From Patescibacteria group bacterium (GTDB lineage: Bacteria; Patescibacteriota; CPR2; UBA1875; JAMCYV01): a DNA stretch of 39,260 nucleotides. This document shows positions 6,747 to 9,402 of this stretch, piece by piece. Each line of letters begins with the position of its first letter. Position 1 is the first letter of the stretch. Position numbers and translations under genes: made by a program. The DNA is taken from assembly GCA_023473595.1 (NCBI GenBank), contig JAMCYV010000014.1:1-39260 (forward strand), written 5' to 3'. The notes under the pieces were generated by a model that made no database searches, was not told where the DNA came from, and was given only the letters and a program-made list of their open reading frames with translations.

Positions 6747-7082
6747 ATGAAAAATGTTTTTAAAAACAAGTTATTACTTTTCGGATTCGGATTAGCTATC
6801 GCTTTTATTGCAATTTCTTATTTCTTTTATCTACTAGTCTCAAAAGTTAATAGGGATGTCATTCAATCAACCGGCAAAAGGCAGATTTCCTGGGGAGAAG
6901 CGGTGAATAAGATAAATAATGGGGAAGTAAAAAGCATAATACAAACCCACAATCTTGAAGTGACTCTAATTCTAAAAGATGGGCAAGGCTTAATTACGGT
7001 TGAGTCAGCCATTGATAATGTCTTTAAAGTAATTCAAGATTGCGGGCAAAAATGCCAAGATATTTCCCTTGCAACTGAATAA
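6747..7082 (+). CDS. Small membrane-anchored protein with FtsH-exterior-like domain
   Basis: A 111-residue protein with an N-terminal membrane helix (about 8-33) followed by a roughly 75-residue outer domain. The stretch ISWGEAVNKINNGEVKSIIQTHN then ILKDGQG resembles the FtsH extracellular domain (pattern of S-x-F, then I-x-x-G-x-V, then a beta strand and D-G). No AAA ATPase or peptidase follows. It ends with two Cys in CGQKC near the C-terminus. It lies 14 nt after the permease gene, so it is probably in the ABC operon. The FtsH resemblance is my reading and is not proven. Confidence 0.55.
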   Translation: MKNVFKNKLLLFGFGLAIAFIAISYFFYLLVSKVNRDVIQSTGKRQISWGEAVNKINNGEVKSIIQTHNLEVTLILKDGQGLITVESAIDNVFKVIQDCGQKCQDISLATE

Positions 7083-7092
7083 ACCTTTAGAT

Positions 7093-7272
7093 CTAGAGAT
7101 CTAACTTATCTCTTATTTGACCTAAATTTTCTTCTAAATCTTTAATAGTGTTTTGAACTTTTACCCTTTCTTCGTTTGGCAAGTTATTTCTAGCTAGTTT
7201 ATCCATGTCCTCGATATTATTTCTAGCATTATTCCAATCTGCAACGAATTTTTCTTTTGTAGGTGCATCCAT
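7093..7272 (-). CDS. Tiny helical protein D of the minus-strand small-protein operon
   Basis: A 59-residue, highly charged, helix-rich protein that I do not recognise. The ATG at 7272 is chosen over an in-frame one at 7305 because GGAGGT lies 4 nt before it. That Shine-Dalgarno overlaps the stop codon of the preceding gene. Its start TKEKFVADWNNA matches TRERFMNEWNRA at the start of the upstream protein, so the two are paralogs (shared pattern T-K/R-E-K/R-F-x-x-D/E-W-N-x-A). It is the last gene of the cluster and ends with TAG. Confidence 0.65.
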   Translation of the reverse strand: MDAPTKEKFVADWNNARNNIEDMDKLARNNLPNEERVKVQNTIKDLEENLGQIRDKLDL

Positions 7273-7274
7273 TT

Positions 7275-7499
7275 TTACCTCCTTATTCTCATTATCTTTT
7301 TCCAATCTTCCTCCTGGTCTAGTCTTTGGAACCGATTTCGAGAATCGTATAAAGCTTTTTCTAATTTCTGAAGCTCAAACCGATATACATCCTTATCAGG
7401 GATTGTCCCATCACATTCAATAACGAACCTAATATCAGCGATAGAATGAAGAGCCCTGTTCCATTCATTCATAAATCTTTCCCGAGTATCTTTTTTCAT
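7275..7499 (-). CDS. Tiny helical protein C of the minus-strand small-protein operon
   Basis: A 74-residue charged helical protein that I do not recognise. Its N-terminus TRERFMNEWNRAL matches the next protein (59 residues), indicating a tandem duplication. Its ATG overlaps the TGA of the preceding gene (ATGA), and its last codons AGG AGG TAA double as the Shine-Dalgarno of the next gene. It has one cysteine and no membrane segment. Confidence 0.65.
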   Translation of the reverse strand: MKKDTRERFMNEWNRALHSIADIRFVIECDGTIPDKDVYRFELQKLEKALYDSRNRFQRLDQEEDWKKIMRIRR

Positions 7500-7693
7500 T
7501 CTTTTATCAACCCTTCTATTTTATTTTTCAAATCATAGGCTAGGAAGTCAGCCTCTTCTAAATCAACAACCAGTTTTCCAGTATTGACCCCATCTGCTTC
7601 TAAGTTTCGGATAATTCTCCTCATATCTCTAACGCTTGCCAGAAGATCATCCGCCCTATCATTGATTTTTTTAATATTAGAATTCATATTCAT
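7496..7693 (-). CDS. Tiny coiled-coil-like protein B of the minus-strand small-protein operon
   Basis: A 65-residue protein with heptad-like hydrophobic spacing across most of its length (IKKINDRADDLLASVRDM, then further leucines). It is probably an antiparallel helical hairpin. No family is recognised. Its ATG overlaps the TGA of the preceding 42-residue gene (ATGA), and its own TGA overlaps the next ATG, so translation along the cluster is coupled. A second ATG two codons in (MNMN) is an alternative start. Confidence 0.6.
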   Translation of the reverse strand: MNMNSNIKKINDRADDLLASVRDMRRIIRNLEADGVNTGKLVVDLEEADFLAYDLKNKIEGLIKE

Positions 7694-7818
7694 ATATTTT
7701 TAGTTGCGTTTTTGACATTCCTTACATCGTTTTCTATCTTCGTCAAGTTGTCACGGGTATCCACATTTGATCTTCTCACTCCTTGAACTGTCTTTTTCAT
7801 ATTGTTTAAGTTATCCAT
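7690..7818 (-). CDS. Tiny helical protein A (42 residues), first main gene of the small-protein operon
   Basis: A 42-residue ORF starting MDNLNNMKKTVQGVRR and ending NVKNATKNI. It looks like one amphipathic, positively charged helix with regular I/V/L spacing. It stops with TGA overlapping the next ATG. The ATG at 7818 overlaps the TAA of a 9-codon upstream ORF (TAATG), and AAGAGA sits 6 nt upstream. An in-frame ATG at 7824 would add two residues. Its place in a chain of overlapping stops and starts supports it as real despite its size. Confidence 0.5.
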   Translation of the reverse strand: MDNLNNMKKTVQGVRRSNVDTRDNLTKIENDVRNVKNATKNI

Positions 7819-7847
7819 TAGCATTCTCTTATCAACCTATAATTCAT
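7818..7847 (-). CDS. Nine-codon leader ORF of the small-protein operon
   Basis: ATG at 7847 with a good Shine-Dalgarno AAGGAG 5 nt upstream encodes MNYRLIREC and then stops at TAA (7820-7818), overlapping the next ATG by one base. It has the best ribosome-binding site at the head of the cluster. It may load ribosomes for the downstream genes or act as an attenuating leader peptide. The function is inferred from position only. A TATTAT at 7875-7870 is a possible -10 box. Confidence 0.4.
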   Translation of the reverse strand: MNYRLIREC

Positions 7848-7926: not shown

Positions 7927-7955
7927 TTGACAACTAGACTAGCATTTGCTATCCT
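7927..7955 (+). promoter_or_regulatory. Consensus sigma-70 promoter upstream of a putative small RNA
   Basis: A consensus TTGACA (7927-7932), a spacer of exactly 17 bp and TATCCT (7950-7955). Predicted transcription starts near 7961. No coding region follows before a terminator at 8045-8072. Confidence 0.65.
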
Positions 7956-7960
7956 TAGTC

Positions 7961-8073
7961 TACTTATAGGGAACGGCGCTATGTAAAAATAGTCGCCCCA
8001 GAGGGGGAAAGACCTTCCCTCTCGGTATGATCAAGAAAGCTAGAGGGCCTTGAGACTTCAAGGTCCTTTTTTG
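7961..8073 (+). ncRNA. Putative structured small RNA of about 113 nt, family not recognised
   Basis: Between a consensus promoter and an intrinsic terminator lies a short, GC-richer segment without an ORF. It can fold into three hairpins. The first is GGCG-CUAU/AUAG-CGCC with one bulged U (about 7975-7997). The second is AGAGGG/CCCUCU (about 8002-8025). The third is the terminator. I do not see the SRP RNA GGAAG loop, a T-box AGGGUGG element, or tmRNA and RNase P features. It ends about 70 nt before serS, so it could be a stand-alone RNA or a terminated leader of serS. The promoter-plus-terminator layout favours an independent RNA. Confidence 0.55.
8045..8072 (+). terminator. Intrinsic terminator of the putative small RNA
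   Basis: A 9-bp stem GGGCCTTGA/TCAAGGTCC (one G-U pair) with loop GACT is followed by six Ts at 8067-8072. Confidence 0.8.
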
Positions 8074-8145
8074 TATTATTCCAAAATTTGCATTTTTCGG
8101 TTATACTTATTGTTAATTGCTAATTATTAATTGTTAATTACTGCC

Positions 8146-9402
8146 ATGTTAGATATAAATTTTATTAGAGAAAATAAAGAAATTGTTGAAAAATCCGCTA
8201 AAGACAAAGGCTTTAGAGTTGATATTGATAAATTAATTAAGATAGATGATAGGAGACGAAAGCTCCTTACCGAGATTGAGAATTTGAGGACTGAACAAAA
8301 TAAGATTTCTAAAGGAATAAAAGGCAAGCCTGACAAAGCACAAATAGAAAAATCAAAAAAGATAAAAAAGGAGCAGGAAAAGCTTTTGCCAGAAATTAAA
8401 AAGGTTGAAGAAGATTTTAATCAACTTATGCTTCTGGTTCCTAATATACCAAGCAAAGATACACCCGTCGGCCCGGACGAAAATTCAAATAAAGAAGTGA
8501 AAAAATGGGGGAATATTCCTAAGTTTGATTTCCCGATCAAAGACCATCTGGATCTGGGAATTCAAAATGACTTAATTGACATTGAAAGGGCAGTCAAATT
8601 AGCCGGCACGAGAAGCTATTTCCTAAAAAATGATTTAGTACTCTTTGAGAACGCCGTTTTGAGATTCGCTTTGGATACCCTTAAAAAAGAAGGATTTCAA
8701 ATATTTAATCCACCGGTTCTTCTAAACCGGCAAGCTTTTATAGGAACTGGCTTTTTTCCAACCTACAGCGAAGATATTTACAAGGTTGAAGGAGAAGAGT
8801 ATTACCTGGCAGGAACAGCTGAAGTGCCGGTAGCTTCCTATTATAGTAATGAAACTTTAGGCGAGCATGAGCTACCGAAGCTTATGGCTGGGATTTCAAG
8901 CTGTTTTAGAAAAGAAGTCGGCACATACGGCAAAGACACTAGAGGAGTTTTCAGACTTCACCAGTTTAATAAGGTAGAGCAAGTGGTCATTTCAAAGCCG
9001 GAAGAAGCAGAAAAATATTTCAATTTTATCCTTGAAACAGCAGAAAAAATATTAAAAGCTTTAGAAATTCCTTATAGAGTAATGCAGCTCTCAACCGGCG
9101 AAATGGGCTTCCCGCAATATAAAAAGTATGATATCGAGTGCTGGGTCCCGTCGCAAAAGAAATATAGAGAAACCCATAGTTGTTCAAATGATACCGATTT
9201 TCAAGCCCGAAGGTTAAATATTAAATATCGAAGTGAGAATGGTGAGAAGGAGTATGTTTATACTCTTAATAATACCGCTATTGCTACGCCTCGAATTTTA
9301 ATCCCGCTTCTGGAACTCAATCAGCAAAAAGATGGTAGTATTAAGACCCCCAAAGTGCTACAACCCTATATGAACGGACAAAAGGAAATAAGAAATCAAT
9401 AA
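8146..9402 (+). CDS. serS: Serine--tRNA ligase
   Basis: A 418-residue class II synthetase. The N-terminal coiled-coil arm (about 28-105, LRTEQNKISK and KIKKEQEKL) binds the long variable arm of tRNA-Ser. The catalytic core shows AGTAEVPVA, motif 2 FRKEVGTYGKDTRGVFRLHQF and motif 3 with TATPRILIPLLE. Motif 3 has ATPR where many homologs have AxGR, a mild variation. The ATG at 8146 (MLDINFIREN) is preferred over a TTG 15 nt upstream because it matches the family start. No Shine-Dalgarno is visible, and TTAATT ends 6 nt upstream, so a leaderless start is possible. The 3' neighbour is hpf. Confidence 0.95.
   Translation: MLDINFIRENKEIVEKSAKDKGFRVDIDKLIKIDDRRRKLLTEIENLRTEQNKISKGIKGKPDKAQIEKSKKIKKEQEKLLPEIKKVEEDFNQLMLLVPNIPSKDTPVGPDENSNKEVKKWGNIPKFDFPIKDHLDLGIQNDLIDIERAVKLAGTRSYFLKNDLVLFENAVLRFALDTLKKEGFQIFNPPVLLNRQAFIGTGFFPTYSEDIYKVEGEEYYLAGTAEVPVASYYSNETLGEHELPKLMAGISSCFRKEVGTYGKDTRGVFRLHQFNKVEQVVISKPEEAEKYFNFILETAEKILKALEIPYRVMQLSTGEMGFPQYKKYDIECWVPSQKKYRETHSCSNDTDFQARRLNIKYRSENGEKEYVYTLNNTAIATPRILIPLLELNQQKDGSIKTPKVLQPYMNGQKEIRNQ

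Follow-up and report, generated by a model that had tools for sequence, protein, structure and literature searches.

A chain of overlapping genes for small, predicted helical orphan proteins in a patescibacterial genome

The stretch of DNA that we analysed (39,260 nucleotides, hereafter the window, from contig JAMCYV010000014.1 of the Patescibacteria group bacterium assembly GCA_023473595.1) carries on its minus strand four tiny genes, here called A to D, that follow one another closely behind a nine-codon leader ORF. The four genes look real, and their codon usage is that of the host genome's genes. We give about an even chance to the explanation that they make up a genuine, lineage-restricted operon, expanded by tandem duplication, that encodes four small, soluble, helical proteins, and that these assemble into a charge-complementary bundle complex. 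Bacteria with small genomes have many short genes that are dropped during annotation. In the chain, which is a well-formed case, gene-finding statistics, paralogy and translation signals agree that the tiny genes are real, though databases know none of them. The complex, if it exists, would be a natural and compact case of one helical hairpin becoming a hetero-oligomer through tandem duplication, with gene overlap and Shine-Dalgarno (SD) strength as the sole controls of expression.

Layout and coding signal of the chain

The host genome comprises 775 kb in 33 contigs and is 84.6% complete, and the genomes of its relatives are mostly 0.5-1.2 Mb, which suggests a reduced-genome phylum of the Patescibacteria/CPR type. 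Apart from the chain, on contig C14, no run of four such small ORFs came up in a scan of the genome. The chain is flanked by a convergent gene for an FtsH extracellular domain (6747-7082, plus strand) and by the divergent serS (8131-9402). The sequence-only reading had described minus-strand ORFs of 9, 42, 65, 74 and 59 codons joined by TAATG, ATGA, ATGA and a stop embedded in the next SD, and all of this is found in the sequence as claimed (Table 1). The spacings at the leader-A, A-B, B-C and C-D junctions are -1 (TAATG), -4 (ATGA), -4 (ATGA) and +2 nt, so that every junction falls within the -4 to +3 nt range of start-stop spacing at which coupling is most efficient according to a review (PMC12548453). 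At the C-D junction, the TAA stop of C is the end of AAGGAGGTAA, inside the SD of D. A second in-frame ATG for A lies at 7824, from which A would have 44 codons.

Table 1. Features of the small-gene chain (positions in the window)
Feature	Position	Strand	Description
Leader mini-ORF, 9 codons (MNYRLIREC)	7818..7847	minus	SD AAGGAG; stop TAA overlaps ATG of A (TAATG)
ORF A, 42 codons, basic	7690..7818	minus	Predicted single amphipathic helix
ORF B, 65 codons, acidic	7496..7693	minus	Starts in ATGA overlap with A; no SD; predicted helical hairpin H2-33/H39-64
ORF C, 74 codons, basic	7275..7499	minus	Starts in ATGA overlap with B; predicted helical hairpin H3-29/H36-73
ORF D, 59 codons, acidic	7093..7272	minus	Paralog of C; perfect 9-nt SD UAAGGAGGU overlapping the stop of C
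Inverted repeat TTAGATCTCTAGATCTAA, 18 nt, AT-rich	7087..7104		Read from the sequence; spans the stop of D, between convergent genes

The coding signal was measured with codon models trained on 443 long host ORFs, each frame being scored as the per-codon log-odds against the best other frame. The scores were 0.150 for A, 0.306 for B, 0.044 for C and 0.223 for D. For 676 spurious ORFs from the same genome the 99th percentile was 0.025; all four lie above it, and they fall inside the range of real genes (percentiles 45, 97, 12 and 79 of real gene windows). A was weak when scored against an intergenic composition model. The leader frame scored negative and has no codon-usage support, and an antisense 72-aa ORF (7205-7423, plus strand) was also without coding support. 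On the minus strand, a scan found no sigma-70-like promoter directly before the leader. The inverted repeat at the end of D is possibly a weak bidirectional terminator, and the terminator scan did not call it as one.

Paralogy, predicted structure and tentative relatives

The last two proteins had been read as paralogs, and shuffle tests bear this out: the C-D similarity (score 54) was equalled by none of 2000 full shuffles and by one of 3000 shuffles that keep the heptad classes. By this measure, C and D are paralogs that have diverged from each other. B is probably a third member of the family, its similarity to C being reached in 2 of 2000 shuffles and in 1 of 3000 with heptad classes kept; in the same kind of test B against D was not significant and A showed no similarity to B, C or D. 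When the 11,729 ORFs of the genome were searched with C, D ranked first and B third among the non-self matches. As for a further paralog in the genome beyond B-D, the only near-threshold match (L050) turned out to be GatC.

The AlphaFold2 model of B, made from the single sequence, is a two-helix hairpin with a mean pLDDT of 92.7, and that of C, made with the three-row alignment A1, is likewise a two-helix hairpin (pLDDT 91.7). These folds are predictions, and a helical hairpin for D would follow by homology. A is strongly amphipathic, with a hydrophobic moment reached by 1 of 2000 shuffles. The initial description of the products as small, helical and coupled holds. The net charges alternate from A to D (+4, -2, +3, -3), a pattern with odds of ~1 in 8 by chance.

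Structure searches with the B and C models returned nothing significant. Among the closest known systems, Rop/Rom of ColE1 and other two-helix hairpins that dimerise into four-helix bundles share with the chain the ~60-residue soluble helical hairpin, and the B model superposes on Rop (3k79) at TM 0.74/0.83 with a Foldseek E of 1.6, which is not significant. However, the chain consists of four coupled genes whereas Rop is a single plasmid gene, and Pfam gave no Rop family match. WXG100/ESAT-6 proteins are also small helical hairpins that are often paired, and EsxB and HP0062 are among the insignificant fold matches for C. In contrast to the WXG100 proteins (~100 residues), the chain proteins are shorter, have no WXG in the loop and, in C and D, carry the W in helix 1; A-D had no match to this group in NCBIfam or Pfam.

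A tentative relative was found among the 16 genomes searched of the same class. In genome G015, a small standalone gene (L175:9870-10070) with its own strong SD encodes 66 residues and matched the profile at E 1.7e-4; its protein is ~33% identical to D, a similarity equalled by 2-3 of 3000 shuffles. The reverse search from this protein ranked D first and B second among the 11,729 ORFs, while broader profiles also match generic coiled coils. A second gene of G015, L186:1504-1707 (plus strand), has a strong SD and encodes a Met-rich 67-residue protein of hairpin type that is similar to the first (E 7.4e-6). We also observed that this second gene is convergent with a 317-aa permease-like gene. 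The relationship is only suggestive, because the profile of all five sequences also matches designed bundles and keratins. The tentative relative in G015 weakly matches half of the DUF2383/PA2169-type four-helix bundle (PF09537, E 2.7e-4; TIGR02284, E 8.4e-4), both matches being below the curated cut-offs (21.5 vs 30.8 bits for the first), and A-D themselves have no match to it in Pfam or NCBIfam. A broader reading, which we consider unlikely, is that B, C, D and the two G015 proteins belong to an undescribed, fast-evolving family of ~60-70-residue hairpins of the phylum, which would have expanded in tandem into an operon in this lineage; the paralogous subunits would form a single heteromeric bundle with complementary charges, and the last of them would be produced in excess.

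Translation signals and the proposed complex

The 3' end of the host 16S rRNA, GGATCACCTCCTTT, carries the canonical anti-SD, and the duplex energies calculated with it were -8.7 kcal/mol for the leader, -3.1 for A, +1.8 for B, -4.6 for C and -13.5 for D. The best SD of the chain had been assigned to the leader, but it is that of D, which is stronger than the SD of every one of 592 long ORFs (their best, -13.40 kcal/mol). From these energies, two entry points for ribosomes are expected, the leader and D. In the proposed operon, ribosomes would load at the leader SD, end leader translation at TAATG and start again on A; B and C would be reached via termination-reinitiation at the ATGA overlaps, and D would be read both by coupling and from its own very strong SD, making it the most abundant product.

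The coupling architecture is ordinary. Bicistronic leaders and termination-reinitiation chains with overlaps of -1 or -4 nt have in common with it the short leader with its own SD and the TAATG and ATGA junctions, whereas here every gene is a tiny orphan and the last one has the strongest SD of the genome. The leader itself is presumably translated. We also considered that the leader is the former start of A, separated from it by the loss of one base or by an assembly indel, in which case A would truly begin at 7847. No good SD precedes A other than the one at the leader ATG, the two frames would become one if the leader were shifted by a single base, and the lack of codon signal in the leader agrees with this reading. 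However, the leader contains no long homopolymer, and its stop-on-start placement is the one that coupling requires; this placement and the leader SD are rare (a comparable mini-ORF before a weak start was seen for 2 of the 592 long ORFs), which makes the leader unusual, and we hold a displaced start to be rather improbable.

The sequence-only reading had gone from strict coupling to a stoichiometric complex, and this argument is only partly supported. Because B has no SD, it should depend on coupling, and a complex of A-D is plausible given the paralogous hairpins, the alternating charge and the short overlaps. On the other hand, D can be initiated independently and is likely in excess, because its SD is the strongest in the genome; D is probably overproduced, the output is probably not strictly 1:1, and a strict stoichiometry for D is unlikely. 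Genes for subunits of heteromeric complexes are enriched in short overlaps (PMC10666635). Of all gene spacings, ATGA is the most frequent, and on its own it does not mean that a complex is formed. When homomers are duplicated, paralogous complexes are a common outcome (PMC1895999). Under the operon explanation, C, D and probably B would have arisen by tandem duplication of a two-helix hairpin and then diverged into alternately basic and acidic subunits, and B-D together with the basic helix A would form a hetero-oligomeric bundle of helices with complementary charges. No neighbour, homologue or motif lends support to a function beyond such a helical-bundle complex.

Orphan status, alternative origins and neighbouring sequence

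That none of the products could be recognised still holds after searches of Pfam, NCBIfam, PHROGs, PADLOC and PDB sequences, in which no homologue of A-D was recognised; the PHROG matches were weak and of the coiled-coil type only. No homologue appeared among viral contigs (including IMG/VR), phages (INPHARED) or genome contigs, the plasmid collection PLSDB gave one chance match only (E 0.2, unannotated), and A-D fell into no phage or plasmid family of these collections. Among 380 genomes of the phylum, apart from the tentative relative in G015, no homologue was recognised either. The phylum profile matches that could be identified, other than the small G015 genes, were generic coiled coils or came from helical portions of larger proteins (they include release factor 2 and GatC). 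The serS-secA synteny is conserved in relatives while the genes upstream of serS vary, and the small-ORF chain upstream of serS was absent in all nine syntenic relatives. No run like the chain came up in an architectural scan over 646 kb of G001, the closest relative; the longest small-ORF run there (four ORFs, L168:12531-13327) is of a different kind, with basic and membrane-type proteins. A-D are orphan proteins, and the function proposed for them is putative. As a separate observation, runs of small KGG/GGQ-repeat (stress-type) proteins occur in the host genome (L052 4939-5368, contig C5) and in the G001 run just mentioned, where other small ORFs lie between the repeat proteins.

Phage early regions typically contain chains of tiny orphan ORFs, and the chain could accordingly be a remnant of a phage or mobile element, tiny early genes left amid housekeeping genes; the variable gene content upstream of serS, with the chain never present in relatives, points the same way. 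However, the codon usage is host-like, the neighbouring genes with a Pfam identification are cellular, no tRNA flanks the chain, and the searches of IMG/VR, INPHARED, PLSDB and PHROGs described above speak against it, so we judge such an origin improbable.

The alternation of basic and acidic proteins is also what would be seen for two toxin-antitoxin-like or effector-inhibitor pairs, A with B and C with D, in which the acidic partner neutralises the basic one and the SD of D keeps the inhibitor in excess. Protein sizes, overlapping genes and the strong SD of D are compatible with such pairs. However, C and D are paralogs, which is unusual for a toxin and its antitoxin, B and C are modelled as plain hairpins without a DNA-binding or nuclease domain, and no toxin or antitoxin family, type II ones included, was significantly matched in Pfam, NCBIfam or PADLOC, and we therefore regard the pairing as doubtful and of low probability. 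That the ORFs are untranslated, being a non-coding RNA or chance open frames, would agree with the lack of homologues and with the weak score of A against intergenic composition, but it is highly improbable in view of the frame test, which places all four above the 99th percentile of spurious ORFs, the perfect SD before D and the paralogy seen at the protein level.

Several other elements were noticed around the chain. The convergent neighbour is a free-standing membrane protein that consists of the FtsH extracellular domain only (PF06480, E 1.8e-6) and lies behind a MacB-type ABC pair. Upstream of serS, on the plus strand, a promoter-like TTGACA-17-TATCCT (7927-7955) precedes short hairpins and an intrinsic terminator (8042-8069); the element 7927-8069 is a candidate ~108-nt small RNA or serS attenuator, with no Rfam match and no clear blastn conservation in 12 relatives. 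At the start of serS (8109-8135), the heptamer TTAATTG/AATTAAC is repeated, and it recurs as a tandem array elsewhere in the host genome (G000:C26:6702-6770) and as dispersed matches in relatives.
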